DNA from: Candidatus Eiseniibacteriota bacterium
GTDB lineage: Bacteria; Eisenbacteria; RBG-16-71-46; CAIMUX01; WJJG01
Assembly: GCA_023129715.1 (NCBI GenBank)
Contig: JAGMBO010000034.1
Span: 1 to 64,000 of the forward strand
Length of the DNA: 64,000 nucleotides
Direction: 5' to 3'
Shown: in pieces, positions 5,801-25,381 of the stretch
Numbering within the stretch: the first letter of the stretch is position 1
Layout: each line of letters opens with the position of its first letter
Notes under the pieces: model-generated
Told to the model about the DNA's origin: nothing
The model's input: only the letters and a program-made list of their open reading frames with translations
The model's database searches: none
Made by a program: the position numbers and the translations under genes

Positions 5801-6193
5801 GAACATCGGGATCACGGGATCGTTGTAGAGCATGAACGAGTCGGCAGTGACACGCGCGAAGTACACCCGCAGGTTGGTGCTCATGTCCCGTGAAGTCCAG
5901 CCCTCCAGACTATCGGCCGTGCCCGCATCCCAGGTCCAGACGGCCGCCTCGCAGCCATCGTCGACGCTGTTGTAGGCGATCCCCTCGGCCTCGTTATAGC
6001 CCCCGAACCAGACGGTGTCAGCGCGTGTGGGGGCGGGTGGTAAAGCCGGGAGGTCCCATCGATCTCCCTCGGGCACATACTGCTGAACGTTCCTGGGCTG
6101 CCCCATTGGATGCCCCATGGGGCTGCCAACCACAGCAAGGAGCAGGATCACGGTCAGCAACAACCCCCTCGTCAAGGTCTGCTCTCTCCTCAT
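2831..6193 (-). CDS. Large secreted protein, paralog A (1120 residues, FlgD-like tail)
   Basis: The start chosen is the ATG at 6191-6193 (MRREQTLTRG), preceded by AAGGGGACC and followed directly by a signal peptide; the frame is open 19 codons further upstream but without such signals. The mature protein opens with RADTVWFGGYNEAEGI, then two jelly-roll-like segments each carrying DAQGW or SLEGW, a central YYYRSYW region, and a domain with DKYDREY and NPGGYGNNGC. The last 85 residues are FlgD-like (PARPNPFRGDVAIRF ... SSKELVFLK). No catalytic motif of a known peptidase or glycosidase was found. It has exactly the same length as paralog B immediately upstream, and by eye about four of five residues agree. 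It is the third gene of the operon, 71 bases after paralog B. Confidence 0.85.
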   Translation of the reverse strand: MRREQTLTRGLLLTVILLLAVVGSPMGHPMGQPRNVQQYVPEGDRWDLPALPPAPTRADTVWFGGYNEAEGIAYNSVDDGCEAAVWTWDAGTADSLEGWTSRDMSTNLRVYFARVTADSFMLYNDPVIPMFPAPNIGQLWVGAHEYEAEELGWILGMGYGNDWCQKAISPGFLIAPGHDIDISFTYFQDSEIDFDYTYVEVLCFEGGKLTETHEVQRLHACIGAPAAPALFSEIVAYDQLGVSPDSIQLQFRFTSDRGWSDEDGDYSCEAGPFAADDMLIRIDKIEHFFDFERDAQGWTFEKCPGVGSYMGIYSESEWSALAYFHLNPVACPCDLSGNALHCATTIPISRRPGHPRDQHECVISPIVDRGRFTSSAGWRRVLLQYDAFEYLRLLRWTFYRIGCSYYPHSTPECPGLRWSHRIGEETWHYGEWDPVCIDDRLFDLSAVTDGTPPPADWELLRGCIEVMVDCDDFGLWPLQCEHEGATRGSPVYDNVRLGLTSGPDAPAIALKAGHLFHDGFGQQSPTHLDPSDVCDVNIGYDLSRDAPSLNDWQGDTAVISGPPVFSPDQTYWIDLCFKVAKKGPRQETIPGYSAWKSRLVGSPEDDFVCALMDTAMIYSYHDGGWVPVDDSQARVTYFHEDDPGFNPTFDDRMPEQEILPDRVFTPGTRIEYYYRSYWAQGGSDYCTIPATGALEIEFLPMMEADASTPDEYDVIWPCVLYIDAFNAGAESTIMAMLEQSGLAFDKYDREYVTTNYDAPLLRSYGGDYFNPGGYGNNGCTLQQLLGYRLILFSSGTYGVGAGAMADFDLLESWLTTTVCGLTGIRRGLILNGDAIVGMMCDPEEGLAVPFCTELLGATITDPIYRDYNNDDFGCVYLSPSGEGEFAPMVPVAVYGNDCPAILDYDVLEVTPGGGAVGNLLYEPGSGAVGPTFPEIAFAQVVRESLAGAGDVGGWKSIVDGFSFHHLSQVGYGGEECSADSAAVLAGAQALFEAELLWLTDGGAEPFVPWLYLCGSSEVEEPHETHLAGGVDFLYPARPNPFRGDVAIRFSCANQGPVRVSVFDVSGRLVRTVHDGKVSQGETRLVWDGADNAGRRMDCGVYWVEMSTSGYKSSKELVFLK

Positions 6194-6264
6194 TCTCGGT
6201 CCCCTTGCCCTCTGCCTCCCTGCACCAGTGCGAGGCACTGCTTCCCGCACCTCGCGGGTTTCAA

Positions 6265-9200
6265 CTACCGCAAGAGAATCAGCTCCTTCGATGACCGATA
6301 GACGGACGTGCTCATCTCGACCCAGAAGATCCCGCTGCTGACCCCCTGCCCGGCGTTGTCTCGCCCATCCCAGACCATCCGGTTCTCCCCCTTCGTCGCC
6401 TTGCCATCATGGAGAGTCCGCACCAGACGCCCCGAGGCATCGAAGATCGAAAGACGCACCAACCCCTCGTTGGCACACGAGAAGCGGATCGCCACATCAC
6501 CCCGGAACGGATTGGGCCGGGCGGGATAGAGGAAGTCGACCCCACCGGCAAGATGCGTCTCGCTCTCCTCTTTCACCTCCGCGTCCTGGCAGGTGTAGCG
6601 CCAGGAAACAAAGGGCTCGGCGCCACCGTCGGTCAGCCAGAGCAGCTCTGCATCGAAGAGCGCCTGCGCACCGGCGAGAACGGCGGCCGAGTCGGCCGAA
6701 CACTCCTCGCCGCCATGGCCGACCGGGGAGAGATGATGGAAGCTGAACCCATCGACAATCGACTTCCAGCCCCCGATTCCGCCGGAACCACCCAAGCTTT
6801 CCCTGACCACCTGGGCGAATGCGACCTCCGGAAACGTCGGATCCACCGCCCCGCTGCCCGGTTCGTAGAGCAGATTTCCAATCGCACCACCCCCGAGAGT
6901 TGCCTCCAGCACGTCGTAGTCGAGGAGTGCCGGGCAGTCGTTGCCATAGACCGCCAAAGACACCATCGGGGCAAACTCACCATCCGTGCTCGGGGAGAGG
7001 TGGACGCAACCGAAGTCATCGTTGTTGTAGTCGCGATAGATCGGATCCGTGATTGTTGCACCCAGAAGCTCCGTGCAGAACGGAACCGCCAGCCCCTCCT
7101 CCGGATCGCACATCATCCCAACGATGGCGTCCCCATTGAGGATCAGCCCGCGCCGGATCCCCATCAGACCGCACTGTGTGGTCGTCAGCCAGGCCTCCAG
7201 CAACTCGAAGTCCCCATGCTCTCCCACAGCGATCCCATGGGTCCCGGTATTGAAAAGGATCAGGCGGTACCCCAGGAGTTGCTGCAGCGTACAGCCATTA
7301 TTGCCGTACCCGCCCGGGTTGAAGTAGTCACCCCCGTAGCTGCGCAGCATCGGCGCGTCGTAGTTCGTGGTGATGTACTCCCGGTCGTACTTATCGAATG
7401 TCAGCTCCGATTGCTCCAGCATTGCCACGATTGTTGCTTCCGCTCCGGCGTTGAACGCATCGACGTAGAGGACACAAGACCAGAGGACATCGTATTCCTC
7501 CACCGTACTCGTGTCGCCCTTCATCATCGGCAGGAACTCGACCTCATGGACTCCGGTCTCGGGAAGCCTGAATTCGTCGGATCCTCCCTGCGCCCAGTAG
7601 CTGCGGTAGTAGTACTCGATCCGCGTCCCGGGCGTGAAGACGCCATCGGGGAGGATCTCCTGCTCCGGCGTGCGGTCAGTAAACGCTGGGTCGAATCCGG
7701 GATCGTTCTCGTGGAAGAAGGTCACGCGTGCCTGGCCGTCATCCACCGGCACCCACCCACCGTCGTGGTAACTGTAGATCATCGCGGTATCCATCAGCGC
7801 ACAGACGAAATCCTCCTCCGGATCCCCGCTCAGGCGGTTCTTCCAGGTCCAGTAGCCGGGGATCATCTCCTGTCGAGGCCCCTTCTTGGCAACCTTGAAA
7901 CAGAGATCGATCCAGTAAGCCTCCCCGATTGGAGATGTCGGGGGACCCATCACCACGGCGGTGTCTCCGTGCCAATCGTTCTTCGATATATCGTCTCTGC
8001 TGAGGTCATATCCGATGTCGACATTGCAGACATCACCGGGATCCAGGTAGGTGGGCGATCGCTGACCGAAGCCATCGTGGAACAGGTGCCCGGCCTTGAG
8101 GGCAATTGCAGGCGCGTCAGGACCGCCGGTCAACCCGAGGCGAACGTTGTCATAGACGGGTGACCCTCTGGTCTTCCCCTCATGCCGACAGTCCGACCAA
8201 CAGAGGCCGAAGCTATAACAATCCACCATGACCTCAATACAGCCCCTCAGCAATTCCCAGTCAGCAGGCGGGGGCGTTCCATCGGTGATCGCACTGAGGT
8301 CGAAGAGTCGATCGTCGATGCAAACGGGATCCCATTCACCATAGTGCCAAGTCTCCTCCCCAATGCGGTAACTCCAGCGCAGGCGGGGGCAATCCGGCGT
8401 GGAGTATGGATAGTAGGAGCATCCGATGCGGTAGTAGGTACACCGAGGCAAACGGAGATACTCGAACGCGTCGTACTGAAGGAGAACCCGGCGCCATCCC
8501 GCAGAACTCGTGAAGCAACCACGCTCGACAATGGGTGTCATCAGGCACTCGTGCTGACCCCGCGGGTGCCCCGGCCGGGGGGAAGTCGGAATCGCCGTCG
8601 CGCAGTGGAGCGCATTCCCAGAGAGAGGGCAGGGACAGGCGACGGGATTGAGCTCGAAGTAGGCCAATGCATACCATTCCGGTTCCGTATAGGTTCCAAT
8701 GAAGGTCCCCACACCGGGCATCATCTCGAAACTCCAGCCTTGCGCATCCGACTCGAAGTCGAAGAAGTGCTCTTCCTCCCCGATTCGTACGAGGATATCG
8801 TCAGCGGCAAAAGGCCCGTAGAGGCACGAGTAGTCGCCATCCTCATCAGACCAGCCCCCGTCAGAATGGAAGCGGAACTGAAGCTTAATGCTGTCAGGGG
8901 CGACCCCGAGTTGGTCGTAGGCCACGGTCTCTGAGAAAAGCGCCGGCGCTGCTGGGGTTCCAATGCGGGTGTGCAGGCGTTGGACTTCATAGGTCTGGCT
9001 TACTTCCCCGCCTTCGAAGCAGAGCACCTCCACATACGTGTAGTCGAAGTCGATCTCGCTGTCTTGGAAGTAGCGAAAGCTGATGTCGATCTCATCATCC
9101 GGCTGGATATCGAACCCCGGCGAGATCGCCTGCTGCCGCCACTCGTTGCCGTAGCCCATCCCGTTGACCCACCCGAGCTCCTCGGCTTCGTATTCGTGAG

Positions 9201-9627
9201 CACCAACCCAGAGCTGGCCGACACTCGGTGCCGGGAACATCGGAATCACGGGATCGTTGTAGAGCGTGAAGGAGTCGGCGGTGACGCGTGAGAAGTAGAC
9301 CCGCAGGTTGGCGCTCATGTCCCGGGAAGTCCAGCCCTCCAGACTATCGGCCGTGCCCGCATCCCAGGTCCAGACGGCTGTCTCGTAGCCGTCGTCGACA
9401 CTGTTGTAGGCGATCCCCTCGGCCTCGTTGTAGCCCCCGAACCAGACCGTGTCGGCGCGTGTGGGGACGCCCGGGGAAGCACGCAGATCCCCCCTATCCC
9501 CTTCTGTCACAAACTGTTGGACGATCCGGGGTCGCTCGGCAGGACGGGCGTGGGCGCTTGGGGCCACTGACAGGAGCAGGATCGCCAGTGGCAAAGCCCC
9601 TCTCTTGAGCGGGAGTCCTCTTTTCAT
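6265..9627 (-). CDS. Large secreted protein, paralog B (1120 residues, FlgD-like tail)
   Basis: The ATG at 9625-9627 has AGGAGG 6 bases upstream and starts a clear signal peptide (MKRGLPLKRGALPLAILLLS). Domain order matches paralog A: RADTVWFGGYNEAEGI block, two jelly-roll-like segments, the DAFNAGAEATIVAMLEQ region and a FlgD-like tail ending SSKELILLR. Many Cys residues (CPCPLSGNALHC, CRHEGK) suggest disulfides in an exported protein. Similarity to paralog A is patchy at DNA level: some stretches of more than 100 bases are nearly identical while flanking DNA is clearly diverged. It begins 34 bases after the BNR/dockerin gene and is the second gene of the operon. The biochemical function is not recognisable. 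Confidence 0.85.
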   Translation of the reverse strand: MKRGLPLKRGALPLAILLLSVAPSAHARPAERPRIVQQFVTEGDRGDLRASPGVPTRADTVWFGGYNEAEGIAYNSVDDGYETAVWTWDAGTADSLEGWTSRDMSANLRVYFSRVTADSFTLYNDPVIPMFPAPSVGQLWVGAHEYEAEELGWVNGMGYGNEWRQQAISPGFDIQPDDEIDISFRYFQDSEIDFDYTYVEVLCFEGGEVSQTYEVQRLHTRIGTPAAPALFSETVAYDQLGVAPDSIKLQFRFHSDGGWSDEDGDYSCLYGPFAADDILVRIGEEEHFFDFESDAQGWSFEMMPGVGTFIGTYTEPEWYALAYFELNPVACPCPLSGNALHCATAIPTSPRPGHPRGQHECLMTPIVERGCFTSSAGWRRVLLQYDAFEYLRLPRCTYYRIGCSYYPYSTPDCPRLRWSYRIGEETWHYGEWDPVCIDDRLFDLSAITDGTPPPADWELLRGCIEVMVDCYSFGLCWSDCRHEGKTRGSPVYDNVRLGLTGGPDAPAIALKAGHLFHDGFGQRSPTYLDPGDVCNVDIGYDLSRDDISKNDWHGDTAVVMGPPTSPIGEAYWIDLCFKVAKKGPRQEMIPGYWTWKNRLSGDPEEDFVCALMDTAMIYSYHDGGWVPVDDGQARVTFFHENDPGFDPAFTDRTPEQEILPDGVFTPGTRIEYYYRSYWAQGGSDEFRLPETGVHEVEFLPMMKGDTSTVEEYDVLWSCVLYVDAFNAGAEATIVAMLEQSELTFDKYDREYITTNYDAPMLRSYGGDYFNPGGYGNNGCTLQQLLGYRLILFNTGTHGIAVGEHGDFELLEAWLTTTQCGLMGIRRGLILNGDAIVGMMCDPEEGLAVPFCTELLGATITDPIYRDYNNDDFGCVHLSPSTDGEFAPMVSLAVYGNDCPALLDYDVLEATLGGGAIGNLLYEPGSGAVDPTFPEVAFAQVVRESLGGSGGIGGWKSIVDGFSFHHLSPVGHGGEECSADSAAVLAGAQALFDAELLWLTDGGAEPFVSWRYTCQDAEVKEESETHLAGGVDFLYPARPNPFRGDVAIRFSCANEGLVRLSIFDASGRLVRTLHDGKATKGENRMVWDGRDNAGQGVSSGIFWVEMSTSVYRSSKELILLR

Positions 9628-12346: not shown

Positions 12347-13033
12347 ATGCGACGCTCTGAATCTACGATCCTCCTTGCCTGTGTGCTTGCGCTCCTCTGC
12401 GGCGGATGCTCAGATTCCACTTCCCCCCGGGGCGACACCGGACCCGGACCGGAGGCTCCTGATCTCTCGTCACCGGCCAACGTGATGGCCGCGCTCGACT
12501 ACGCGTATGAGACTCGGGAGATTGCCATCGTCGACAGCATCCTCTCCGATGACTTCGTCTTTGTCTTCAGCGCCGAAGACCAGGCTCGACCGTGGTTTCC
12601 CGATTCCCTGACCCGTGCGCAGGAGGTCTCGGCTCATGACGCGCTTTTCGACGTGGACAGTGTGCAAACTCTGACGCTCGATTTCGATGTCGGCGAGGCG
12701 GCAATCGATACGACGCGTTCATCACCCGGCGACACCCTGTGGACCATATTGGCTACGAATGTGCACATCCGCCTGTACGGCACCGTTCCTGGCTGCGGAT
12801 ACGAGGGTCCGCTGGAGTACAAGGTAGATGGCGGCATCGGGCTGTTCTGGCTCAGGGAAACCAGCCCCGACCGCGACACGGGAACACCGACGTGGGAGAT
12901 CGTTCGGTGGGAGGACGATCGCATAGTCCCTGCAAGACCGCAGGGCTGCGGCCAGTTGTCAGCTGGAAGTGAGAACACCTGGGGGCGCATCAAGTACCTC
13001 TTCTTGAACGGCTGCTATCGTTCTGAACACTAG
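12347..13033 (+). CDS. NTF2/SnoaL-like lipoprotein with Trp-Gly-x-x-Lys C-terminus
   Basis: A 228-residue predicted lipoprotein. The ATG at 12347 has CGGAGG 6 bases upstream; nine upstream in-frame codons lack this signal. The signal peptide ends in the lipobox LCGGC, so Cys is near residue 21. The body starts SPANVMAALDYAYETREIA and goes on DSILSDDFVFVFS, the pattern of SnoaL/NTF2-like alpha+beta barrels. There is no FlgD-like tail; it ends TWGRIKYLFLNGCYRSEH, a motif related to the ends of the proteins at 25511 and 32793. It is the first gene of a plus-strand lipoprotein operon, 16 bases before the next. The pocket may bind a small ligand, but no catalytic residues can be named. Confidence 0.75.
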   Translation: MRRSESTILLACVLALLCGGCSDSTSPRGDTGPGPEAPDLSSPANVMAALDYAYETREIAIVDSILSDDFVFVFSAEDQARPWFPDSLTRAQEVSAHDALFDVDSVQTLTLDFDVGEAAIDTTRSSPGDTLWTILATNVHIRLYGTVPGCGYEGPLEYKVDGGIGLFWLRETSPDRDTGTPTWEIVRWEDDRIVPARPQGCGQLSAGSENTWGRIKYLFLNGCYRSEH

Positions 13034-13049: not shown

Positions 13050-14321
13050 GTGTGCATTCGACACTGGAGTATTCTCCTCGGCGTGAGCGCGACCGTTCTC
13101 CTCGGCTGTTCCGACGACCCCAACACCACCCCCTCGATTCCCACGGTCCACCTCGTTGCCGCTGACGGCAGCGGTGACTTCCCGACCATCCAAGCCGCGA
13201 TCGACAGCGCCGCCGACGGCGAGATCATCGAGCTTGCCGATGGCACCTTCACCGGAGACGGCAACCGGGACCTCTCTTTTGCGGGCAAGGCGATCACCCT
13301 GCGATCCCGCAGCGGGGACCCGGAGACCTGTGTCATCGACTGCCAAGCCGACACCTCGGATCTCCATCGGGCCTTTCTCTTCCAGGGGCAGGCATCCTCG
13401 CGCAGCGTCCTCGAGTCACTAACGATGACGAACGGCATCAGCTCGTTCGGCGGGGCCGTCTTCTGCAGTAGCGGAGCGGGTCCACGGATCCGCAACTGCG
13501 TGTTCCGAGGCAACTCCGCTCTCCACTATGGGGGAGCCATCTGGTGCAAACGGGGCGCCGCCCCGACGATCGAGAGCTGCATCTTCGAGAGTAATTCGTC
13601 GAGCCACGACGGAGGATCCATCGCGGCGGCCGGTGCCGCGCCGACCATCGTCGGGTGCAGTTTCTCGGACTGCTCCGCTGACTGGACGGGAGGGGCAATT
13701 GCCAGTCTAGACAACGCGCGGTGCAGCATCTCCCGATGCTGCTTCTCAGGGAACTATGCCCGCTTTGGCGCCGCTGTCTCCTGCGAGTTCTCCGGTCCGA
13801 TTCTGACCGATTGTCTATTCACCGACAACACGGCCCGATGGTGCGGCGGAGGCATTCACTGCCACGCATTTGGATACGCCCTGATCGACCACTGCACCTT
13901 TGTCGGAAACCACGCCGTCTGCGGAGGATGCGTCTCTTCCGACTGGGGCGGCCAGCCCCACCTTCGGTACTGTACCCTCTATGGCAACTCCGCCGAGCGA
14001 GGGGCCGGGGTCGAGTGCGAGTCGTACTCGTCCATCGTCCTGACCCACTGCATCATTGCCGGCAGCGCTTCGGGAAACGCGGTCCAGTGCCGCAACGAAG
14101 GCACTTGGATCGGCCTCGCCCACTGCAATCTCTTTGGAAACGCAGGCGGCGACTGGGTCGACTGCGCTGCGGACCAACGGGGCTTGGACTGCAACATGAG
14201 TGTAGATCCCCTGTTCTGCGACCCGGAGAATCGCGTGTTCACCCTGTACAGCTCCTCTCCCTGCCTGCGCGACAGCCTCACGGGACGGCCGATCGGCGCC
14301 TGGGGGATCGGATGCGAGTAG
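13050..14321 (+). CDS. Beta-helix lipoprotein
   Basis: A 423-residue protein starting at GTG 13050, with GGGAGA just upstream. The signal peptide ends in the lipobox VLLGC (Cys about residue 20), so the product is membrane-anchored. The mature part begins VAADGSGDFPTIQAAIDSAADG and continues with right-handed beta-helix coils marked by GGAxxC and CxFxxNxA patterns, ending GAWGIGCE. There is no FlgD-like tail. It resembles the protein at 16860 along its length and the N-terminal half of the protein at 218. Its last 10 bases overlap the start of the next gene (ATGCGAGTAG), which strongly suggests translational coupling. Such helices often bind or cleave polysaccharide, but lyase residues were not identified. 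Confidence 0.85.
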   Translation: MCIRHWSILLGVSATVLLGCSDDPNTTPSIPTVHLVAADGSGDFPTIQAAIDSAADGEIIELADGTFTGDGNRDLSFAGKAITLRSRSGDPETCVIDCQADTSDLHRAFLFQGQASSRSVLESLTMTNGISSFGGAVFCSSGAGPRIRNCVFRGNSALHYGGAIWCKRGAAPTIESCIFESNSSSHDGGSIAAAGAAPTIVGCSFSDCSADWTGGAIASLDNARCSISRCCFSGNYARFGAAVSCEFSGPILTDCLFTDNTARWCGGGIHCHAFGYALIDHCTFVGNHAVCGGCVSSDWGGQPHLRYCTLYGNSAERGAGVECESYSSIVLTHCIIAGSASGNAVQCRNEGTWIGLAHCNLFGNAGGDWVDCAADQRGLDCNMSVDPLFCDPENRVFTLYSSSPCLRDSLTGRPIGAWGIGCE

Positions 14322-16810
14322 CAATCACTGGTCTGCTGTGCTGCCTCATGGTGGGCCTCGCTGTTGCTGAAGGAACTGCCCCCGGGGACGAGCACTGGTG
14401 GGCGGGTTTCACAGGACCCGGGCTCTCCGGCTACGCACCTCGTGTGGGCAGTGTCGTCATTCGTGATCTGATCGTTCATCAAGGTTCACTGATCGCCGGC
14501 GGGCAGTTCGGGTGGGCGGACAGCTTGGCGGTCCAGAGTGTCGCGCGCTGGGATGGAACTACTTGGGCTCCGCTCGCAGATGGCCTGGGAGACCCGCTCA
14601 ACATCGACGCCACGAGCGTATCGGCGCTGGCTGTTCTCGATGGTGAACTGATTGTCGCGGGCACTTATCTGGGACCATCCAACAGTTCCATGCAGTGCAT
14701 TGCACGCCTCTCCGGCCAAGAATGGGAACCGCTAGGAGAAGGCATCGCTACCCAGGACGGTGGCCGTGGTGAAGTGCGTGCCCTGACCGTCTTCGAGGGA
14801 GAACTCATCGCTGCAGGTTCATTCGGATTGGCTGGGGCCGACACGGCCTGCAACATTGCCCGCTGGGATGGCACGCGCTGGCACGCGATGGGAACGGGCC
14901 TTGGCGCAGCCAGAGGGTTACACAAATCCTCATCCGATGCGGTCTATGCGCTGACCGTCCATGAGAGCCAACTCATTGCCGGTGGCCGATTCTCCGTGAT
15001 CGGCAGCGACTCGGCCATGAATCTGGCGCTCTGGGACGGCTCAGGGTGGCATCCCCATACCACCGGAACAAATGCTTCGGTATTCCACCTCAGTACGCTC
15101 GAAGACAGACTCCTGACCGCCGGCTCCTTCACGGTGGCTGGAGGCACATCCATCGGCGGCATTGCAACCTGGGATGGCACCGCATGGTCGCCGCTTGGTG
15201 ACGGAGTCAGCCGTCGTGGACGAAGCGGTAGAATCTACGAGTGCTTGGAATCCAACGGCCGCGTGTTCGCCTGCGGCTGGTTCGACGCCGCGGGCGACAC
15301 GGCAGCCACCTCCATTGCTGCCTGGAACGGCAATGCCTGGGAACCCCTGGGTGACGAGTTCCCGAGTGCCTACCGCTTGACATATGGTTATGCGCTGGCG
15401 ATCTACCAAGACAACCTCGTTGTCGGGGGAGACTTCGCCGATGCCTACGGTAAGGATGTGGGGGGAATCGCCCGATGGGACGGTCTGCGCTGGCACCCTC
15501 TTTGGGGAGCAGGACAGGGCATGGATGGCCCCGTTGCGGCTCTGACCGTGTTCAATGATCGGCTGATCGCCGGCGGCGACTTCAGCCATGGCGGAGGCGA
15601 GGAGTTGGCGGGCCTGGGTCAGTGGAATGGCGCGAAGTGGGAGCCAATCGGACAGGGCACAAATGGGACGGTCCGTGCACTAGCGACCTATCGAGGCGAT
15701 CTGATCGCCGGGGGCACATTCAGTGTCGCCGGTTGCGACTCCGCCGCACGCATTGCCCGCTGGGACGGAGAAGCCTGGCATTCCCTGGGGACAGGAATCG
15801 ATGGCTTCGACGTTACTGCCCTGCATGTTCACCGCGGCGAATTGATTGTCGGCGGCCGCTTCGCCCGGGCTGGGGGATACCTATCACCCAATCTCGCCCG
15901 ATGGAACGGAGTCCGCTGGATTCCCTTCGAAGAAGGCATCATCGGTCCCAGCGAAGGCGGCGTCACCGAGATGACCTCCATGGATGGCGACCTTATCGTT
16001 GCCGGAAGGATCGGCATCGCGGGGGGAGAATTTGTCCCCGGCATCGCTCGTTGGAACGGTCGCGACTGGAGCCATTTGGGAGGCGATTTCGTCGACTTCT
16101 TCGGCTCCTACAACTTCCCAGGTGTCTTCGCGGTCACAACGTATGATGGCGATCTGGTGATCGCGGGGAACATCGAGGAGATCGATTCTCAGTACGTCGG
16201 CGGCATCGCCCGATGGGATGGCATGCGCTGGCAGCCCCTGGGCGAGGGCTTCGACAACTGGCTGCATGCGCTGGTCTGCTACGATGGGCGCCTGATCGCT
16301 GGAGGCAGTTTCCGCGACGACCCTTGGGACGCCGGATTCAACCACATCGCGCAGTGGGACGGGATCAGCTGGTCAGGACTGGGCTCGGGGATTGCGCCGG
16401 GTAGCGGTGGGAGCATCTACGCGATGGCAGAGTATCGGGGAGAGCTCTACGTCGCTGGTCACTTCCAGGCCGCCGGCATTAGACCTTCCGCCCACATCGC
16501 CCGCTGGAGGGGAACGAGCGCGGATCGCCCCGCCGGCACGTCTCTTCTCCGCCTATCCCCCAACCCCGTCGGCGAAGAAACCGCCATCCATTTCTTCCTG
16601 CCCGGCTCGCGCACCGTGCGCTTCTCGGTGCACGATGTCGCGGGCCGCATGGTCTATCGACTGCCCGCGGCAGACTACGGGGGGGGCTGGCAATCGGTTG
16701 CCTGGACCGCAACAAGTCAGGTGGGGCGTCCCTTGCCCACGGGCACGTACTTCCTCAGACTCGACACGGGACGGAGGATCCACAGCGGCCGGGCGGTCGT
16801 GGTTCGATGA
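14312..16810 (+). CDS. Secreted ARWDG-repeat beta-propeller protein with FlgD-like tail
   Basis: An 832-residue protein. The start is the ATG at 14312 inside the end of the preceding gene; the frame is open further upstream, but that DNA encodes the beta-helix lipoprotein in another frame. The signal peptide is MRVAITGLLCCLMVGLAVAE. The body is at least ten repeats of roughly 50-65 residues built on the theme ALxVxxGxLIxGGxFxxAG, then IARWDGxxWxPLGxG, resembling kelch-type propeller blades. The last 80 residues are FlgD-like (SPNPVGEETAIHF ... SGRAVVVR). A second member of the family lies at 29632. Placement and coupling with a beta-helix lipoprotein suggest a shared surface assembly; the partner and ligand are unknown. 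Confidence 0.85.
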   Translation: MRVAITGLLCCLMVGLAVAEGTAPGDEHWWAGFTGPGLSGYAPRVGSVVIRDLIVHQGSLIAGGQFGWADSLAVQSVARWDGTTWAPLADGLGDPLNIDATSVSALAVLDGELIVAGTYLGPSNSSMQCIARLSGQEWEPLGEGIATQDGGRGEVRALTVFEGELIAAGSFGLAGADTACNIARWDGTRWHAMGTGLGAARGLHKSSSDAVYALTVHESQLIAGGRFSVIGSDSAMNLALWDGSGWHPHTTGTNASVFHLSTLEDRLLTAGSFTVAGGTSIGGIATWDGTAWSPLGDGVSRRGRSGRIYECLESNGRVFACGWFDAAGDTAATSIAAWNGNAWEPLGDEFPSAYRLTYGYALAIYQDNLVVGGDFADAYGKDVGGIARWDGLRWHPLWGAGQGMDGPVAALTVFNDRLIAGGDFSHGGGEELAGLGQWNGAKWEPIGQGTNGTVRALATYRGDLIAGGTFSVAGCDSAARIARWDGEAWHSLGTGIDGFDVTALHVHRGELIVGGRFARAGGYLSPNLARWNGVRWIPFEEGIIGPSEGGVTEMTSMDGDLIVAGRIGIAGGEFVPGIARWNGRDWSHLGGDFVDFFGSYNFPGVFAVTTYDGDLVIAGNIEEIDSQYVGGIARWDGMRWQPLGEGFDNWLHALVCYDGRLIAGGSFRDDPWDAGFNHIAQWDGISWSGLGSGIAPGSGGSIYAMAEYRGELYVAGHFQAAGIRPSAHIARWRGTSADRPAGTSLLRLSPNPVGEETAIHFFLPGSRTVRFSVHDVAGRMVYRLPAADYGGGWQSVAWTATSQVGRPLPTGTYFLRLDTGRRIHSGRAVVVR

Positions 16811-16859
16811 GACCGCCGCCATGCTCCTTCCCCGGGGCCGTCGACACGTGAGTGTGACC

Positions 16860-17894
16860 ATGTGCGATAGACTGATGAACAGACTCCCCGGTCAGGCATT
16901 GCTTGTTGTGCTCGCGTTCGCCTGCTTCGCAGGGTGTTCGCGCGAGAACCCTGGCCGGCCGAGCGATCACTCGTACCGGACGATCTGGGTCGCTCCCGAG
17001 GGTGGCGGCGACTTCACGAACATCCAGGCCGCCCTCGACAGCGCCGCACCGGGCGATACGATCATTCTGTCCGCGGGCACCTATCGAGGACCGGGCAATC
17101 GGGACCTCCGATTCCAGGGCAAGGCCCTCACTCTGCGCTCGGCCTCTCGCGACCCCCAAGACTGCATCCTCGACTGTGAGGGCACCGAGGCGGATCCGCA
17201 TCGGGGATTCATCCTTGAGGATCTGGCAACCGGAAACGCTTTGCTCGAGGGCGTGACGATCATGCGAGGCCATGCCGGGGACCAACGCGAGGCTTCCGGC
17301 GGAGGGATCCATTGCGCGAACTCTACCCTCACGATTCGCGGCTGCATTCTTCAGGAATGCAGTGCCGATCGCGGCGGTGGGCTCTCCTGTATCGGCTCTT
17401 TCCCGACCCTGCACGGATGCACGTTTCACGGTAACGCGGCTCGTGAAGGCGGCGCGGTCTATGCGGAAGTTGCTGTTCCCCTCTTCAGGAACTGCACATT
17501 CTATGGAAACAGCGCGACCGAACACGGCGCTTCAGCGTACGCTGGGCCCTATGCGAACATCTGCCTCCGCTGCTCAATCATCGCCCTTTCGGCGGGCAGT
17601 AAGGCGATCTATGGGGAGGCCTGCTCGCCCTGGTGCGAGGGCTACGCCACAATCACGTCATGCGATCTCTTTGGAAACGAAGAGGGCGATTGGGCGGGCA
17701 GGATCGATGATTTGGGCAACTACCAGTTGGATCCGCAGTTCTGCGATCCAGTCGCAGGTGACTTCAGGCTGTCTTCGTCCTCCGCGCTCATCGACAGCCT
17801 GAGCGATTGCGAAGGTGTGGGGGCCTGGCCCATCGGTTGCGAAGCCCCCCCACCCTCACCGCACACAGACGATCCCCGTCTCCCCCGACCCTGA
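16860..17894 (+). CDS. Beta-helix lipoprotein with an altered C-terminus
   Basis: A 344-residue predicted lipoprotein. The ATG at 16860 is the likeliest start but no strong ribosome-binding site is seen; ATG 16875 and ATG 16821 are in-frame alternatives. The lipobox is FAGC (about residue 24). The mature part, VAPEGGGDFTNIQAALDSAA and the following coils, parallels the lipoprotein at 13050. That paralog stops right after GAWGIGCE, whereas this one reads GAWPIGCE and continues 15 further codons to a stop inside the decayed fragment at 17860-17989. The original stop therefore seems lost and the final residues are probably acquired junk. It is the last gene of the lipoprotein operon, 49 bases after the ARWDG protein. 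Confidence 0.75.
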   Translation: MCDRLMNRLPGQALLVVLAFACFAGCSRENPGRPSDHSYRTIWVAPEGGGDFTNIQAALDSAAPGDTIILSAGTYRGPGNRDLRFQGKALTLRSASRDPQDCILDCEGTEADPHRGFILEDLATGNALLEGVTIMRGHAGDQREASGGGIHCANSTLTIRGCILQECSADRGGGLSCIGSFPTLHGCTFHGNAAREGGAVYAEVAVPLFRNCTFYGNSATEHGASAYAGPYANICLRCSIIALSAGSKAIYGEACSPWCEGYATITSCDLFGNEEGDWAGRIDDLGNYQLDPQFCDPVAGDFRLSSSSALIDSLSDCEGVGAWPIGCEAPPPSPHTDDPRLPRP

Positions 17895-17989
17895 AGGCGC
17901 ATTGGTCCGCGCCCAGCAGACCCCCGGCCCAACCAGCGCGTCGCGGTCGTCACCTGGACGTCGACCGGCATCCGGTAGACCTCCGCCAG
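17860..17989 (-). pseudogene. Decayed 3' fragment of an M1-aminopeptidase paralog
   Basis: Read on the minus strand, this 130-bp stretch matches two separate parts of the intact aminopeptidase gene at 21672-23636: the segment coding EMPVDIRVTTA and the final codons coding SGVYWARIDVPSGSGETR. The roughly 316 bases between them in the intact gene are missing. The junction falls on the 9-base sequence GCGGTCGTC at 17943-17951. The intact gene carries the same 9 bases at both corresponding positions (21759-21767 and 22084-22092), so the loss looks like recombination between short direct repeats. There is no start and no open frame. It overlaps the end of the lipoprotein gene on the other strand. 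Confidence 0.8.
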
Positions 17990-18271
17990 ACCTCCGCAAC
18001 CGCCCACGCACCAAGGCGTCAGCTCCACGGACGTCTCGAAGTCCCCCAGCCACGGGGCACGCCAACGACGCATTGGCGATCAAGGGCTTCGCGCCGGGCC
18101 AAGCGATTGACGCCACGAAATCCCCAGTGGCAATCCGGACCTGGATCTGCAACAATTATGCATAAGCACAACTTGCAGTCGGACGAGATCATCAGTCTCT
18201 GTCTGCAGGTTGTCTATTCGCACGTCCTGAGAGTTACCCCTTATAGGAAACCTTGGCACCAGGGAGAGATC
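17990..18271. other. Non-coding leader region
   Basis: This holds no convincing gene. It lies between the aminopeptidase fragment and the large gene at 18272. The last 120 bases are visibly more AT-rich (around aacaattatgcataagcac), so a promoter for the 18272 gene probably sits here, but no matched -35/-10 pair is good enough to call. Confidence 0.4.
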
Positions 18272-21200
18272 ATGAAAGCATTCACCTTGGCAGTAATCCT
18301 GATGCTGGCGACAGCAGCATCCGCCACCGCCGACTGGACCATCGAGGAGGGTTTTGAGGGCGGTGCCATTCCGGCTACCTGGACCACTCACGACGCCGAC
18401 AGCGACGGCAGGACATGGCGGGCTCTCGAGGACCCGTACGCCCACAGCGGCTCGTGGTGCGCAGTGGCCGACTGCTATGGAAGTGGAGGCGACGACTGGC
18501 TGATCACGCCCCAGGTGGCCATCGTTGCGGGCGACTCGCTCATCCTCTACGCAAGGGCCTGGTACGGCAGTGAGGATTTCGAGGTGCGGCTCTCGACGCA
18601 GACCACCTCGATCGGCGACTTCGATCACGTCCTGGATGCCGTGACCGGCCTGGGCACGACATACGTGCGCTACGCCTATGACCTCAGCAACTGGGACGGC
18701 GATGACTGTTACCTGGCGATCCGCTGGCAACAGGATACCTTCGCCATGGTCGTCGACGACATCCTTGTGGGACAGGGTCTCTTCGATGAGGTTGACGCCG
18801 GCATCGTTTCCATCGAGTTGCCTGAGGTCCATCACCGCGTCGATACCTCCATCTTCCCGTCGGGGACCGTCAAGAACTTCGGCGTCCTCGAGATAACAGC
18901 GAGCTTCGACATTCTCTGCGAAATCCGCGACGCGCTCGACGCAATCGTGTATTCGAGCACGCTACTCCACAGCAGTGCCCTGGCTCCCGATCAGACGGAG
19001 TCGGTCACCTTCGCAGACGCCTGGGCTCCGGCGGTCACAGGTTTCTACACCGTAACGATGACCAGCCAACTCGCCGGTGACCAGAATCCCGAGAACGATA
19101 CCTGCGAACGCGAAACAGAAGTGGTCCCCCACTTCGGAACCGGCGGCCCGGACGCATTGGGCTACTACTGGATTGACAGCGGTGAACCGGGCGGGCCGGT
19201 CTACGACTGGATCGAGATCAGCGACACCGGCATCTCCGCCATCATGTACGGTGTCCCCACGTTCTACGCCGACGACAATATGTCGGCCCCGATTCCGATC
19301 GGCTTCGATTTCCGATTCTACGGAATCGAGCGCACTCACCTCTACGTTGATACCAATGGCGAGATCCTGCTTACGGAGAACCTGTGGTACAACGAGTATC
19401 CGGCCCCTGGCTGGGGCAGTGACGGCAACATGTTCAATTACTCCTATCCGATTCCTGGCTACCCCGCCATGCCCGCGCTTGTGGCCCCTTACTGGGACGA
19501 CTTGCTCGCCGATGAGGGCGTCGGCGACGTCTATGTGGAAACACTCGGAGAGGCCCCGAATCGCTACTGCGTGATCGAGTGGCGCAACTTCAGATATCGC
19601 TACGGTACCGTCGAGGACACGACCCTTACGTTCGAGGCAATCCTCCACGAGAACGGGGAGATGGTCTTCCAGTACAAGGACACTTACATCGGCCACAGCG
19701 GAAGCATCTGCCCGCACGACAACGGACGGAGCGCCACTGTCGCCATCCAGAACGACACCGGCGACATCGGCCTGTGCTACCTGAGGGAGATTGTCGAGGG
19801 CCCCAGCTACATCGGCGTCGAGCCGCCCGGCAACCTACTCCAGGACGAGATGGCCATCCGCTTCTATGCCGGGATCGACGAGCAGCCCCCCGTCTTTTAC
19901 TACGAAGGGGCAGGCAACACCCTCGATCTCACGCCGGAATTCACTACGAACATCACGGACATGACAGGCGTGGCAAGCGATTCCATCTACTACAATGTCG
20001 GCGCGGGCTGGGAGTGTGTAGGCCACTCCAGCTTCGAGGAGCCGAATATCTACAGTTTCGAGCTACCGGAGGTGCCGGCGGGTTCAACCTTGCACTACTA
20101 CTTTGCCGCGACCGACAACTCGGAGGCGGAGAACAGGGGCACGCTGCCGGCGGGCGCCCCCGCGGAGTACTTCTCCCTCAAGGTGCTCCCCACGAACGGC
20201 GTTGGCGTACTCCTCGCCTGGCCGGGAACCCAAGATCGGCAGGGGACCGAATTCGCCAAGTACGAGATGGCGCTCCAGGCCGCGGATGTCACCTACGACG
20301 TCTACGATTGGACTGAATACGAGCGCTACGATTTCTCAGAGAGCTACAGCACGATTTTCGCGTACGCCAATTCGGCGGGCAGCGCCGCAATGCATGACAC
20401 GCTCTCGAACGCCATGATGGAGTTCCTCGACTATGGCACGACCGGCGATCCCAAGAATCTCTTCTTCGCCTCCGACGACTTCGGCTACACACAGCACGGC
20501 TACCCGAATGAGAAGCCCATGGCCAAGTTCTACAGCGCCTATATGCGTGCTAGCTACATACCGATCGGAAATCCCGAAGAGGAACCCTTTGGGGGGACGG
20601 ACGGCATCGCCGGGCCCGATGTCTATGAATACACGTCGGGCAGCGTAATCGGCCGGTCCGGCTCCCCGATCGGGCAGGCGGGAGTGGAATTGCCGGTCTA
20701 CTCCAATAGCCCGGATGTAATCGCGAGTCGCGCTTGCCCGGAATGGTATGCGGACGAAGTCACGAATCCTGAAATCAGCTCTAGCACTTCCTTCGCATTC
20801 GAGGACGGCCCCTTTAGCGGCCACGCCTACGCCCGGGGCAATGCATGCGGCATCTGGCTGGACAACCTGATCTACAAGTCGTTCTTCACCAGTTTCGACA
20901 TCTCTCAGTTCACGAGCAACGACGATATCCGGATGCTCATCTCCGACGCGGTAGACTGGTTCGACATTCCTGCTAACGTTGCCGATCCCGGCCATGAGAC
21001 GCCGCGCGTCGGGTTCTCTCTGGCGCAGAACCATCCCAACCCATTCAGTCCGGCGACGACGATCCGTTACAGCCTGCCGCGGGACGGCGATCTGGCGATC
21101 GTCATCTATGACGCCTCCGGCCGCAGCGTGCGAACCCTGCACCGGGGACACGCGACGGCCGGCGCTCACATCATCACCTGGGACGGCGCCGGCGACAACG

Positions 21201-21286
21201 GGAGGCCCGTGGGCAGCGGGATCTACTTCTGCCAGATGGAGTTCGGGGAATTCGCGGCCACCCGGAAGATGATCATGATGAAGTGA
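18272..21286 (+). CDS. Large secreted adhesin-like protein with FlgD-like tail
   Basis: A 1004-residue protein. The ATG at 18272 has GGGAGAG upstream and starts a signal peptide (MKAFTLAVILMLATAASATA); a longer open frame upstream crosses non-coding DNA and is ignored. Residues about 22-170 resemble a cleaved-adhesin/MAM-like jelly roll (EEGFEGGAIPATWTTHD). A CARDB-like spacer and a domain with GFDFRFYG, VDTNGEILLT and YWDDLLADE follow, of the type common in extracellular proteins. A region GVLLAWPGTQDRQG is faintly like the central part of the 1120-residue paralogs. The tail is FlgD-like (AQNHPNPFSPATTIRYSL ... TRKMIMMK). It stands alone between the lipoprotein operon and the convergent aminopeptidase gene. 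Adhesion or matrix binding is inferred. Confidence 0.8.
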   Translation: MKAFTLAVILMLATAASATADWTIEEGFEGGAIPATWTTHDADSDGRTWRALEDPYAHSGSWCAVADCYGSGGDDWLITPQVAIVAGDSLILYARAWYGSEDFEVRLSTQTTSIGDFDHVLDAVTGLGTTYVRYAYDLSNWDGDDCYLAIRWQQDTFAMVVDDILVGQGLFDEVDAGIVSIELPEVHHRVDTSIFPSGTVKNFGVLEITASFDILCEIRDALDAIVYSSTLLHSSALAPDQTESVTFADAWAPAVTGFYTVTMTSQLAGDQNPENDTCERETEVVPHFGTGGPDALGYYWIDSGEPGGPVYDWIEISDTGISAIMYGVPTFYADDNMSAPIPIGFDFRFYGIERTHLYVDTNGEILLTENLWYNEYPAPGWGSDGNMFNYSYPIPGYPAMPALVAPYWDDLLADEGVGDVYVETLGEAPNRYCVIEWRNFRYRYGTVEDTTLTFEAILHENGEMVFQYKDTYIGHSGSICPHDNGRSATVAIQNDTGDIGLCYLREIVEGPSYIGVEPPGNLLQDEMAIRFYAGIDEQPPVFYYEGAGNTLDLTPEFTTNITDMTGVASDSIYYNVGAGWECVGHSSFEEPNIYSFELPEVPAGSTLHYYFAATDNSEAENRGTLPAGAPAEYFSLKVLPTNGVGVLLAWPGTQDRQGTEFAKYEMALQAADVTYDVYDWTEYERYDFSESYSTIFAYANSAGSAAMHDTLSNAMMEFLDYGTTGDPKNLFFASDDFGYTQHGYPNEKPMAKFYSAYMRASYIPIGNPEEEPFGGTDGIAGPDVYEYTSGSVIGRSGSPIGQAGVELPVYSNSPDVIASRACPEWYADEVTNPEISSSTSFAFEDGPFSGHAYARGNACGIWLDNLIYKSFFTSFDISQFTSNDDIRMLISDAVDWFDIPANVADPGHETPRVGFSLAQNHPNPFSPATTIRYSLPRDGDLAIVIYDASGRSVRTLHRGHATAGAHIITWDGAGDNGRPVGSGIYFCQMEFGEFAATRKMIMMK

Positions 21287-21671
21287 TCCGCGGGCCGGTT
21301 CGGCGTCTGGGACGAGCAGTGGACGAGAGACGCCAGGGCCCAATCGCAGGGAGAGGCTGAAGCCCCCTCCCGCAAACGGTTGCTCTCAGTATCGGGCCGC
21401 AACCCCCTTCAGGGTGCGGCCCGACTGCGAGTCGCCCGGTGGCACCAGTCCGGCAGGGGGATGCCGGTGCGGCTAGCCTCCCAGGCTGCGGAAATCTCGT
21501 TCTCGTGCCACTTGAGTTCCAGGGATGGGCGGGAATACAGAGCTGCGCTCACTCCGTCAGCAGTATTGCCACCTGAGGGGCACATCATCTGCTTCTTCTT
21601 GCGTGGTTGCTCGTAGGCGAGTCAATGAGCTGATCGAAGCCGCGGGAAGAGCTTCACAAGGAATCGCCATA
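21287..21671. other. Convergent intergenic region
   Basis: This 385-base gap separates the ends of two convergent genes. Apart from the strong hairpin at 21393-21424, no gene or repeat was recognised; short open frames here have no ribosome-binding site or family resemblance. Confidence 0.4.
21393..21424. terminator. Strong hairpin between convergent genes, no T-tract
   Basis: CGGGCCGC, an unpaired A, ACCC, loop CCTTCA, then GGGT and GCGGCCCG give a 12-bp stem with one bulge. It is about 110 bases past the stop of the 18272 gene and 250 past the stop of the aminopeptidase gene. Neither side has a T-run, so it may act as a processing or stabilising hairpin rather than a classical intrinsic terminator. 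Confidence 0.5.
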
Positions 21672-23636
21672 TCAGCGCACATAGACGATCCGCGTCTCCC
21701 CCGACCCTGAGGGCACATCGATCCGCGCCCAGTAGACGCCCGACTCGACCAGCGCGTCGCGGTCGTCGCGGCCATCCCATGCGATCGTGTGATCCCCGCC
21801 CCGGACATCGTCCAACAGGCGGCGGATGCGTCGCCCGGTGACATCGAAGAGATCGATCGTCACCCGCCCCTCGGTCGGTACCGAGAAGGAGAGCTGAGTC
21901 GCCACGCGGAACGGGTTGGGTTGGGCGGCACTCAAGATCCGCGTCCGCATGCGTCCCGAGGCGGCCGACTTGAGGATGCAGTTGTCGGGATCGAAGGCGA
22001 CATCGAGCGGCCGCTCGCTGAGCGCGAGATCGAAGACCTGCTCGCGCTCGGTGTTCTGTACGACAAAGGTCTGTGTGCCCGAGGCGGTCGTCACCCGGAT
22101 GTCGACCGGCATCTCGTAGACCTCGTAGTGCGCCTGGCTCTGCACGATCCGCAGGGTCAACTCATAGCCGGTCGACACGGGGCGATAGCCCCACTGCCAA
22201 CCATAGCTGGGCCGGCCCTCGACGTAGACCCACTGGGTGAAGAAGGTATCGAGATCCAGCCCCGAGATCTCCTCGCAGACGGCCTGGAAATCGGCCGTCT
22301 CGACCGTATCGTCGCCGCCATGGCGCTCGCGATAGGTGGTCAAGATGGTGAAGAAGTGCGTATCCCCAACGATGTGGCGCAGCATGTGGAGCAGGAAGGC
22401 GCCCTTGTCATAGGGGGTCACCCCGAAGAGGGGCATCGGATCGTAGAGCGCTCCGCGGAACCCCGGCCCATCGGGCGGCGGGAAGGGATCGAGATCGCTG
22501 ATGAAATCGGCGTAGCCCTCTGCTCCCTCGGTGTGCTCGAGCCAAAGCCCCTCGCTGTAAGTCGCAAAACCCTCATTGAGCCAGACATCGCGCCAATCGG
22601 CGAGCCCCACCCAGTCGCCCCACCACTGGTGGGCGAGTTCGTGGACGAAGATCCAGTCGTAGCGCCGCGTACCCGAGATGAACCGGGAGCCCAGGGAGGT
22701 ACAGGTCTGGTGCTCCATGCCCCCGCCCCATTCGATCGAGGCAACGGCGCACTTCTCATCCGGGAAGGGGTAGTCACCAAAGAGATCGGTGTAGAGGACG
22801 ATTCCTTCCTTGACGCACTCGAAGTCGATCCGCGCGTTCTCCTCGTCCTCGGGATAGACATAGTAGTAGAGCGGAATCGTCACCTCCGTCGGCGGAGTGC
22901 CCCCTGAGGAAACGATGACCGAATCTTCGATGACCACGTAGTCGGAGATCGCCAGCGAGACCAGATACGGCGCGATCGGGTAGCCATGCGACCAGGAGTA
23001 GGTCTCCCGCCCGTCGCCGAGGGCGACGACCGAGTCGAGCCCACCATTGGAGACGGCATAGAGCGTATCGGCGACCGTGACCGTGACATCGATCGTCGCC
23101 TTGTCCGCCAGAACATCCTTGCAGGGCCACCAGGCCCCAGAACGATCGGGCGCACTGATCGAAAAGATCACCGGCACCCGCTCGTCACTCCCCTCGACGC
23201 TGTGGCTCGTGAAGGTGAAGGCCTTGCGGTCATCATCGACCACCGCCGGCTCACCGGCATAGCCGATGGAGAGGGCAAAGGACTCATCGAGGGCCAACGG
23301 CTCGGCAAGGGTGATCGTCAAGAAATCATCCGCGTGCGATGAATCCGCCACCGTATGAGTGGTCGAGGAAATCTCGGTCACCGTTAGCGGCGCATAGAGA
23401 TCGAGGACGATTTCATCGAGCCCCGCCTCGAGCGCCTGTCCCCAGACGGTGACCGTCCCGGCCAGCGTGCTGTCTTGCACCTCGATCGCCAGATCGTAGT
23501 GCGTGACATCGTAGCCGCGGTCCTCATCCTGTGCGGCTGCGCTCCGGATCACCGGAAGCCCGGTAGCCGCCAGAACCAACGCCAGAGAAGCAGCCAGGAG
23601 AACGAGGCCTCGCCGATGTGGGGTTCTTCCGTTCAC
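21672..23636 (-). CDS. Secreted M1-family zinc aminopeptidase with FlgD-like tail
   Basis: A 654-residue peptidase that should remove N-terminal residues from peptides outside the cell. The zinc-binding motif HELAHQWWGDW is followed 19 residues after its second His by NEGFAT, giving HExxH-x18-E. The exopeptidase signature appears as GGGMEHQT, the counterpart of GAMEN. The start chosen is GTG at 23634-23636, with GGAGGA 4 bases upstream and a signal peptide after it (RRGLVLLAASLALVLAATG); an ATG 16 codons earlier is possible. The last 85 residues are FlgD-like (AAQPNPFRVATQLSFSV ... GETRIVYVR). A decayed fragment of a paralog lies at 17860-17989. It is monocistronic by spacing. Confidence 0.9.
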   Translation of the reverse strand: MNGRTPHRRGLVLLAASLALVLAATGLPVIRSAAAQDEDRGYDVTHYDLAIEVQDSTLAGTVTVWGQALEAGLDEIVLDLYAPLTVTEISSTTHTVADSSHADDFLTITLAEPLALDESFALSIGYAGEPAVVDDDRKAFTFTSHSVEGSDERVPVIFSISAPDRSGAWWPCKDVLADKATIDVTVTVADTLYAVSNGGLDSVVALGDGRETYSWSHGYPIAPYLVSLAISDYVVIEDSVIVSSGGTPPTEVTIPLYYYVYPEDEENARIDFECVKEGIVLYTDLFGDYPFPDEKCAVASIEWGGGMEHQTCTSLGSRFISGTRRYDWIFVHELAHQWWGDWVGLADWRDVWLNEGFATYSEGLWLEHTEGAEGYADFISDLDPFPPPDGPGFRGALYDPMPLFGVTPYDKGAFLLHMLRHIVGDTHFFTILTTYRERHGGDDTVETADFQAVCEEISGLDLDTFFTQWVYVEGRPSYGWQWGYRPVSTGYELTLRIVQSQAHYEVYEMPVDIRVTTASGTQTFVVQNTEREQVFDLALSERPLDVAFDPDNCILKSAASGRMRTRILSAAQPNPFRVATQLSFSVPTEGRVTIDLFDVTGRRIRRLLDDVRGGDHTIAWDGRDDRDALVESGVYWARIDVPSGSGETRIVYVR

Positions 23637-23820
23637 GGGTTCCTCCACAGCTCGAGGGACACATTCGATGGACGGAATCTCCAAGGCCCTTGGGAGAGTC
23701 CAGAGACTCAGCGAGTCCTATTCAAGGCTAGCAGAACCGCGGCGCGATGCGCCAGTCCGATTAGGGGTGGCCGGCGGGAAGTGTGCGCGGGTTGCTCGCC
23801 GGCGCACGATGGCCCATGGT
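23637..23820. other. Upstream region of the aminopeptidase gene
   Basis: This is non-coding. It lies between the start of the aminopeptidase gene and the tandem array at 23821. It contains a short GTGCGCGG...CCGGCGCAC stretch at 23781-23807 that could pair imperfectly. No clear promoter was identified. Confidence 0.3.
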
Positions 23821-23971
23821 GCCTCACCATGCTCTACGAGCGCACAATGCCACTCCGCGCCTCACCATGCTCTACGAGCGCACAATGGCCACTCCGCGCC
23901 TCACCATGCCTACGAGCGCACAATGCCGCTCCGCGCCTCACCATGCCTACGAGCGCACAATGCTGCTCCGC
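23821..23971. repeat. Four-unit 37-39 bp tandem array
   Basis: Units begin at 23821, 23859, 23898 and 23935 with lengths 38, 39, 37 and 37, and a fifth truncated unit begins at 23972. Each starts GCCTCACCATGC, continues TACGAGCGCACAATG and ends CTCCGC. The truncated unit contains the stop codon of the hydrolase gene on the minus strand, so the array lies in that gene's 3' untranslated region. Unit lengths not divisible by three show it is not maintained as coding DNA. Confidence 0.9.
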
Positions 23972-23974
23972 GCC

Positions 23975-25381
23975 TCACCGTCCGACATACAGAACACGCA
24001 TGGCGGGATAGGCCTGCTCCCCATCGCACAGGCGAAGGAAGTAGGCGCCGGGGGACAGACCCAGGCCGGCGTCGGTCGCTGCGGGCCAGCGAACACAGAA
24101 GCACCGCTCCCCCCGCGGCTGGGGGCACAGACGGGACAACCCGCGCCCCTGGAGGTCATAGACCTCAATCCCCAGCTCTCCGGGTGCTCCCGGTGCGCGG
24201 CTCCCGCGGTCACCTGCCTCCCACCGGAAGACGATCTCCTGACCCGCCCGCAAGGGAGCGGGCACCAACCACTGCAGGCCGCCAAGCCTGGGAATCCCCG
24301 GATCCGCAACACTGGTCACTCCATACCAATCGGCCAGCACATCGGCGGCCGGCTTACCGTGGGGGCTGTAGCCATTATCAGTCGGACCGCCATGATCGGG
24401 ATCGGGCTCCCAGTCCCACCAGAAGAAGCCCCGGAAGTAGTCCCGGTCGCAGAAGGTCTGCAGGGCGGCTTCGTAGCAGTCGACCTGCTCCTGGAGATCG
24501 ACTGTCCCGCTCGTTGTCCACTCCCAGGGATGGATATTGGCTCCATCGACGCTGCGGTAGCCGATCTCGGTGAAGACGATGCTGTGCCCCGAGGTCTGGG
24601 CGAAATCCGCGACGTCGGCCTCCCAGGGTGCCCAGGCAGCGAGCAACTGCGCCGGTGTCGGGTCCAGCAGATCGGTCAGCTCGAAGTAGCCGTCGATGCC
24701 GGCGTAGTCGAGCGAGTCCCAGAACGTGACCGCCGTGTAGTTGTCCCAGTTGGCCGCATAGGTGATCGGCCCGGAGAACCGGGCGCGGACATCGGCGATC
24801 ACCGCGAGCCACTCGGCGCTGCGATGCACGGTGCGGCAGAACTCACAGCCGACGCAGAGTTCCTCCACACCCGCGGCCGCGGCGAGCTCGGCGTAGTGGT
24901 TGAGGAATGCGCGGTAGCTCGCGAACCAGGCCGCCCAGTCGGACTCATTGGTGAACTCGATCACGCCCCGCCAGGCGCCGTTCTGGCAATCGACATGGGG
25001 CTTGAGGAACACATGCATCCCCAGGGCATGGGCGCGGTCGATCGCCTGAAGGACCCCCGCATCGGAAGGCGTGCGCTGCGGATCCTGGTAGATGGAGGTC
25101 GAGGTCTCCGTGTCCTGGTAGCCGGTGACGAGAATCGAGACCCAGTCGGCGTTCGTCGCCGCCAGCAGTGCGAGGGAGGAATCGGAACCACTGCTCTCAT
25201 AGAAATCGTGCCACCAGCTCACGTAGGCAATGCCGTGGTGGAAGGGAACGGCACGTGCGGGGAGTTCGACAGGCACCGCCGACGATCGTCCGGCAAGCAG
25301 GGCGCCGAGAACCAAGAGCCCCGCGAACCCCACGATCTTGGCGGCAAGCGAGACCGCCGGCCGAAGGCTCATCCTGTGCAT
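23975..25381 (-). CDS. Secreted GH113-type glycoside hydrolase with degenerate FlgD-like tail
   Basis: A 468-residue enzyme with a predicted (beta/alpha)8 barrel, probably acting on mannan or a related beta-linked glycan. The motifs follow family GH113: NADWVSI, FLKPHVD, WRGVIEF, ELCVGCEF (likely acid/base Glu), ITYAANWDNY, YAGIDGYFELTD, and IVFTEIGYRS (likely nucleophile Glu). GFFWWDWEPD and PHGKPA close the barrel. The ATG at 25379-25381 has AGGAGAG upstream; a signal peptide follows. The last 75 residues are a diverged FlgD-like tail (LGIEVYDLQGRGLSRL ... AYFLRLCDGEQ) with no PNP motif. The gene is flanked by another exported protein at 25511 and by the aminopeptidase. Substrate is inferred from family only. 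Confidence 0.85.
   Translation of the reverse strand: MHRMSLRPAVSLAAKIVGFAGLLVLGALLAGRSSAVPVELPARAVPFHHGIAYVSWWHDFYESSGSDSSLALLAATNADWVSILVTGYQDTETSTSIYQDPQRTPSDAGVLQAIDRAHALGMHVFLKPHVDCQNGAWRGVIEFTNESDWAAWFASYRAFLNHYAELAAAAGVEELCVGCEFCRTVHRSAEWLAVIADVRARFSGPITYAANWDNYTAVTFWDSLDYAGIDGYFELTDLLDPTPAQLLAAWAPWEADVADFAQTSGHSIVFTEIGYRSVDGANIHPWEWTTSGTVDLQEQVDCYEAALQTFCDRDYFRGFFWWDWEPDPDHGGPTDNGYSPHGKPAADVLADWYGVTSVADPGIPRLGGLQWLVPAPLRAGQEIVFRWEAGDRGSRAPGAPGELGIEVYDLQGRGLSRLCPQPRGERCFCVRWPAATDAGLGLSPGAYFLRLCDGEQAYPAMRVLYVGR

Follow-up and report, generated by a model that had tools for sequence, protein, structure and literature searches.

Introduction

In bacteria, local gene duplicates can persist as pseudogene relics that are unselected, frameshifted and short, and that lie near their paralog. 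The fragment described here, located within a 64,000-nucleotide window (the whole stretch of DNA analyzed, from a Candidatus Eiseniibacteriota bacterium), has the same traits and shows no essential difference from such relics.

With regard to the loss of DNA between short direct repeats, a report on Escherichia coli K12 describes RecA-independent recombination at such repeats, by which the intervening sequence is lost (PMC5426353). The present locus is alike in that a segment was lost between short direct repeats, and it preserves the end product only. For Mycobacterium smegmatis, direct repeats are reported to induce perfect deletions, and the authors point to replication fidelity (PMC3519483). 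Deletion at direct repeats is again the shared feature, but that report deals with engineered chromosomal constructs, in contrast with the natural relic examined here.

The fragment leaves views on the evolution of bacterial genomes unchanged. It offers a clean example of duplicate erosion in a little-studied, high-GC, uncultured lineage, in which unselected drift is combined with a deletion that took place at a 9-bp repeat and shifted the frame.

Results

The relationship between the fragment and an M1-family aminopeptidase gene was analyzed by BLASTN, comparing positions 17601–18300 with 21001–23500 of the window. Two ungapped plus/plus matches joined both regions. Block A (17856–17951, minus strand) corresponded to 21672–21767, with 84 of 96 bases identical (E 1e-30), and its start coincided with the intact gene's stop codon. 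Block B (17943–17983, minus strand) corresponded to 22084–22124, with 37 of 41 bases identical (E 1e-11), and reads EVYRMPVDVQVTT as opposed to EVYEMPVDIRVTT in the intact gene. Both blocks overlapped by exactly 9 bases, GCGGTCGTC, a single copy of which is kept at the joint (17943–17951, minus strand). This bore out the two-block structure joined at a shared 9-mer that had been proposed in the initial annotation. The existence of the fragment was likewise confirmed, while its coordinates, given there as 17860–17989 (130 bp), are corrected to 17856–17983 (128 bp, minus strand), where codons 521–534 of the 3′ end of the aminopeptidase gene are joined out of frame to codons 640–671. A self-comparison of the window yielded, past filters, one other split-match pair of similar shape (30616–30708), which was weak (41.0 + 38.3 bits). 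The fragment is a real relic of a copied peptidase gene, located near the intact gene, and represents ordinary gene decay.

At the right edge of the relic, a 10-bp exact repeat, AGACCTCCGC, can be read at 17977–17997, with two copies (17977–17986 and 17988–17997) and an 11-bp period. It is perhaps another slippage product.

The intact, source-like copy (21672–23684, minus strand) encodes a protein of 670 amino acids. It belongs to peptidase family M1, with a score of 93.2 bits against PF01433 (Peptidase_M1; cut-off 27.7), matched at residues 321–485, and of 46.6 bits against PF17900 (Peptidase_M1_N; cut-off 25.8). The C-terminal stretch is FlgD/T9SS-like, with scores below the cut-offs both for FlgD_ig (24.2 bits vs. 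27) and for the T9SS type A sorting domain (21.9 bits vs. 23). Upstream of the gene, short local repeats are present at 23793–23979 (87% over 115 bp).

On the plus strand of the window, GCGGTCGTC occurs only at 17943, 21759 and 22084, and it is found once on the minus strand, at 36242. The two sites within the intact gene (21759–21767 and 22084–22092, minus strand) differ in the bases immediately outside the 9-mer (C at 21758 and G at 22083; G at 21768 and A at 22093), which limits the shared word to exactly 9 bases. The segment absent from the relic comprises 316 bp (21768–22083, minus strand; residues 534–639). A distance of about 316 bp had been noted originally, which holds for the stretch between the two words; the net loss, including one 9-mer, is 325 bp. 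When all breakpoint pairs 100–1000 bp apart within the intact gene were counted, 187 of 1,319,064 (1.4e-4) shared at least 9 bp. Repeated 9-mers are not uncommon in the gene, with five repeat pairs of 9–10 bp within the 453-bp source stretch; the joint therefore used one of few candidates. The lost segment is bordered by the repeat on either side, and one copy is kept, as in deletions between short direct repeats.

In order to establish the direction of change, we inspected 86 loci with homologs of the aminopeptidase. In 30 of them, a single alignment runs through the segment missing from the relic, which indicates that the segment was lost from the relic rather than inserted into the intact gene and that the ancestral state contained it. 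Across these 30 loci, 78–106 of the 106 segment residues were aligned (at least 94 in all but one, L041), with 5–31 gap columns. Two of them (L020 and L050) gave identical figures and are probably one record counted twice, and further overlaps between the two sets of loci (L010–L038 and L039–L095) are possible. The other 56 loci had no single alignment crossing the segment with the margins set, and were not counted as spanning. Taken with the exact overlap and the breakpoint count, these homologs support the deletion proposed in the initial annotation, with its joint on a 9-bp direct repeat; its attribution to slippage goes further, since slipped mispairing, single-strand annealing and a template switch during copying would all leave the same sequence.

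The relic holds no catalytic part, since its codons begin at 521 and the Peptidase_M1 match covers residues 321–485. Further, 325 is not a multiple of three (3 × 108 + 1), and the reading frame is shifted by the deletion: translation of the 9-mer gives D-D-R at one site, and at the other site the word forms part of V-T-T-A. Neither of the two minus-strand ORFs over the relic had a Pfam match at E ≤ 0.05. Both the frame and the active site are thus lost.

Compared with the intact gene, 16 of the 128 sites differ (12.5%; Jukes–Cantor 0.137), 12 of them by transitions. These differences fall at codon positions 1, 2 and 3 in numbers of 5, 7 and 4, respectively, and 11 of the 15 changed codons are non-synonymous. 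As a control, we employed a pair of tandem open genes from the same window (2831–6250 and 6265–9627), in which position 3 accounts for 311 of the 564 differences. The probability of observing at most 4 of 16 differences at position 3 is 0.015 at the rate of the control pair vs. 0.34 without bias; this test involves 16 differences and one control pair, and the numbers are small. No purifying selection on codons is seen (4 of 16 at position 3), and the relic seems to have evolved without selection during most of its existence, within the limits of these small numbers. As a separate observation, the control region contains a 3.3-kb gene duplicated in tandem (2846–6097 and 6280–9531, minus strand; 83% identity), and positions 1–129 also match 5967–6095 (77%), while 1–59 match 9401–9459 (97%).

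We also searched for further copies in the 4.83-Mb draft genome (186 contigs). With the relic as query, the next DNA matches after the intact gene had E values of 0.085 or worse, and no close copy beyond the intact gene was found in this genome. With 21600–24000 as query (E ≤ 0.001), the only other matches were the relic itself and stretches on contigs C14 and C132 (68–71% identity), which correspond to two other aminopeptidases with 38–40% protein identity. Among 99 genomes (own included), 44 had a match to the aminopeptidase protein (E ≤ 1e-40). Leaving aside the gene of the window itself, the matches listed showed 28–43% protein identity, and none of the 99 genomes belonged to another member of the same genus. 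In a named collection, from which records very near the genome of the window were possibly left out, 57 loci showed 27–39% identity. At the DNA level, 17700–18400 had no match in the four other genomes of the same family, and of the five family genomes searched only its own matched.

The flanks of the relic were compared with the corresponding parts of the intact gene. To the left, the anchored score was 0 and the local score 32.0 (mean of the shuffles, 28.5). To the right, an anchored score of 9 was equalled or exceeded in 20 of 150 random stretches, and the local score for 17985–18272 was equalled or exceeded in 75 of 200 shuffles. A faint rightward continuation seen in loose alignments was discarded, being non-significant against these shuffles and random stretches. 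The minus-strand frame near 18000–18040 reads VELT upstream of EVYRMPVDVQVTT, resembling YELT...EVYEMPVDIRVTT in the intact gene, and a bit more of the aminopeptidase gene may therefore lie beside the relic. An ancient duplication of the peptidase region, as suggested originally, can be retained insofar as the 3′ end of the gene was duplicated long ago; a copy of the whole region is not represented, as only the 3′-most 453 bp are covered and the flanks lack significant homology.

The relic lies between two plus-strand genes, a beta-helix gene (16860–17894), convergent with it, and a gene that matches Cleaved_Adhesin and choice-of-anchor J (18272–21286). The beta-helix protein scored 32.0 bits against Pfam Beta_helix (cut-off 25.9), and its start codon at 16860 was chosen by us inside the ORF 16392–17894. 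This ORF draws its final 12 codons and its stop codon (17856–17894), in frame, from the antisense of the relic, and the homology start at 17856, i.e., the aminopeptidase stop codon, coincides with a boundary between two beta-helix codons. Since a paralog at 13050–14321 ends in GIGCE followed by the stop codon, this 3′ extension of the beta-helix gene looks secondary. The beta-helix family is large: 66 stretches of the genome matched the protein at E ≤ 1e-20 (own gene included, some within the same ORF). A number of its paralogs end in a WGxxKxxFR tail instead.

Discussion

We consider it probable that the 3′ part of the aminopeptidase gene was duplicated, that the duplicate was under no constraint, and that it then underwent a 325-bp deletion between 9-bp direct repeats. 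According to this scheme, a copy of at least 453 bp would have been placed in the orientation of the intact gene and some 3.8 kb away from it, and would have been without function from early on. We infer that the deletion followed the duplication and proceeded by recombination between the two repeats, through either slipped-strand mispairing in replication or single-strand annealing, which would have left one repeat copy and a frameshift behind. What remains would now be a non-functional spacer, except as a source of the stop codon for the convergent beta-helix ORF. A further role, in which the relic was reused so that its antisense, by providing the last 12 codons and the stop, replaced a C-terminal WGxxKxxFR tail and changed the destination of a secreted protein, seems doubtful to us.

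Several observations speak against a duplication followed by a deletion: no flanking homology points to a larger original duplicate, the relic starts exactly at the stop codon, an edge that a simple larger duplication does not predict, and repeated 9-mers are no rarity in the aminopeptidase gene. Moreover, no close relative with a possible intermediate was found, either among the 99 genomes or in the DNA search of the same family. A rival reading is a one-step origin, in which a polymerase copied the 3′ end of the aminopeptidase gene and switched template at the 9-mer, and the resulting two-piece patch was inserted at a break, so that a longer duplicate never existed. The shortness of the relic, its edges devoid of significant flanking homology, its start at the stop codon and the lack of any trace of past codon selection in it are all in line with such an event. 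However, there is no positive evidence for it, and a 325-bp jump between direct repeats of one template would yield a product identical to that of a later deletion; we regard this one-step route as possible but rather unlikely. An assembly or binning artefact could be suspected in a draft genome of 186 contigs, but a chimera would be nearly identical to its source, whereas the differences between the relic and the intact gene are spread over both blocks, at 16 of 128 sites, which makes this explanation very improbable. Even less credible is the idea that the intact gene gained the 316-bp segment by an insertion with a 9-bp target-site duplication, the relic being the older state. Some transposons do leave a 9-bp direct repeat flanking the inserted segment, and a repeat of this kind is present around a segment here. 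In contrast, the sequence encoded by this segment is aligned through in 30 of the 86 loci with homologs and is not foreign to them, which ruled out a transposon target-site duplication, and joining the gene without the segment shifts the frame. A general likeness among genes with C-terminal sorting domains, as opposed to a duplicate of the aminopeptidase gene, has an equally negligible probability. Block A does correspond to the end of the FlgD/T9SS-like stretch, a kind of sequence present in other proteins; nevertheless, block B comes from a position upstream of it, in the aminopeptidase sequence proper, and the genome-wide search gave no better match for the relic than the intact gene, the next places having E values of 0.085 or worse. 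Duplication of the 3′ part with subsequent deletion is thus the reading that we favor.

Apart from the relic, a C-terminal tail of the form [ST]WGx[ILVM]Kxx[FY]R recurs in many proteins encoded by this genome; it is more striking than the relic and deserves a study of its own. The corresponding DNA pattern gave 34 matches in this genome vs. none for the reversed pattern, and in all 30 of the 34 places that were read, the tail begins 10–16 codons before the stop. It looks like a C-terminal sorting or anchoring signal, and is possibly an undescribed one. Matches were obtained in 42 of 59 genomes (own included), the control giving none in all 59; within the same class, 40 of 47 genomes had matches, and outside it 2 of 12 had one match each. 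Nine tail proteins were scanned, and no listed NCBIfam or Pfam match reached the tail at E ≤ 0.1. In the literature, no paper was found on "C-terminal sorting" together with Eisenbacteria, and none on the tail among the best 10 of 129 for Krumholzibacteriota. One named carrier of the tail is a Candidatus Eisenbacteria record (L052). For this genome, the list of tail-bearing ORFs of at least 150 codons comprises 22 entries, many of them with an apparent signal peptide at the start, as judged by eye. Within the window, only looser forms of the tail are present, ending at 13033 (plus strand), 33794 (plus strand) and 25511 (minus strand).
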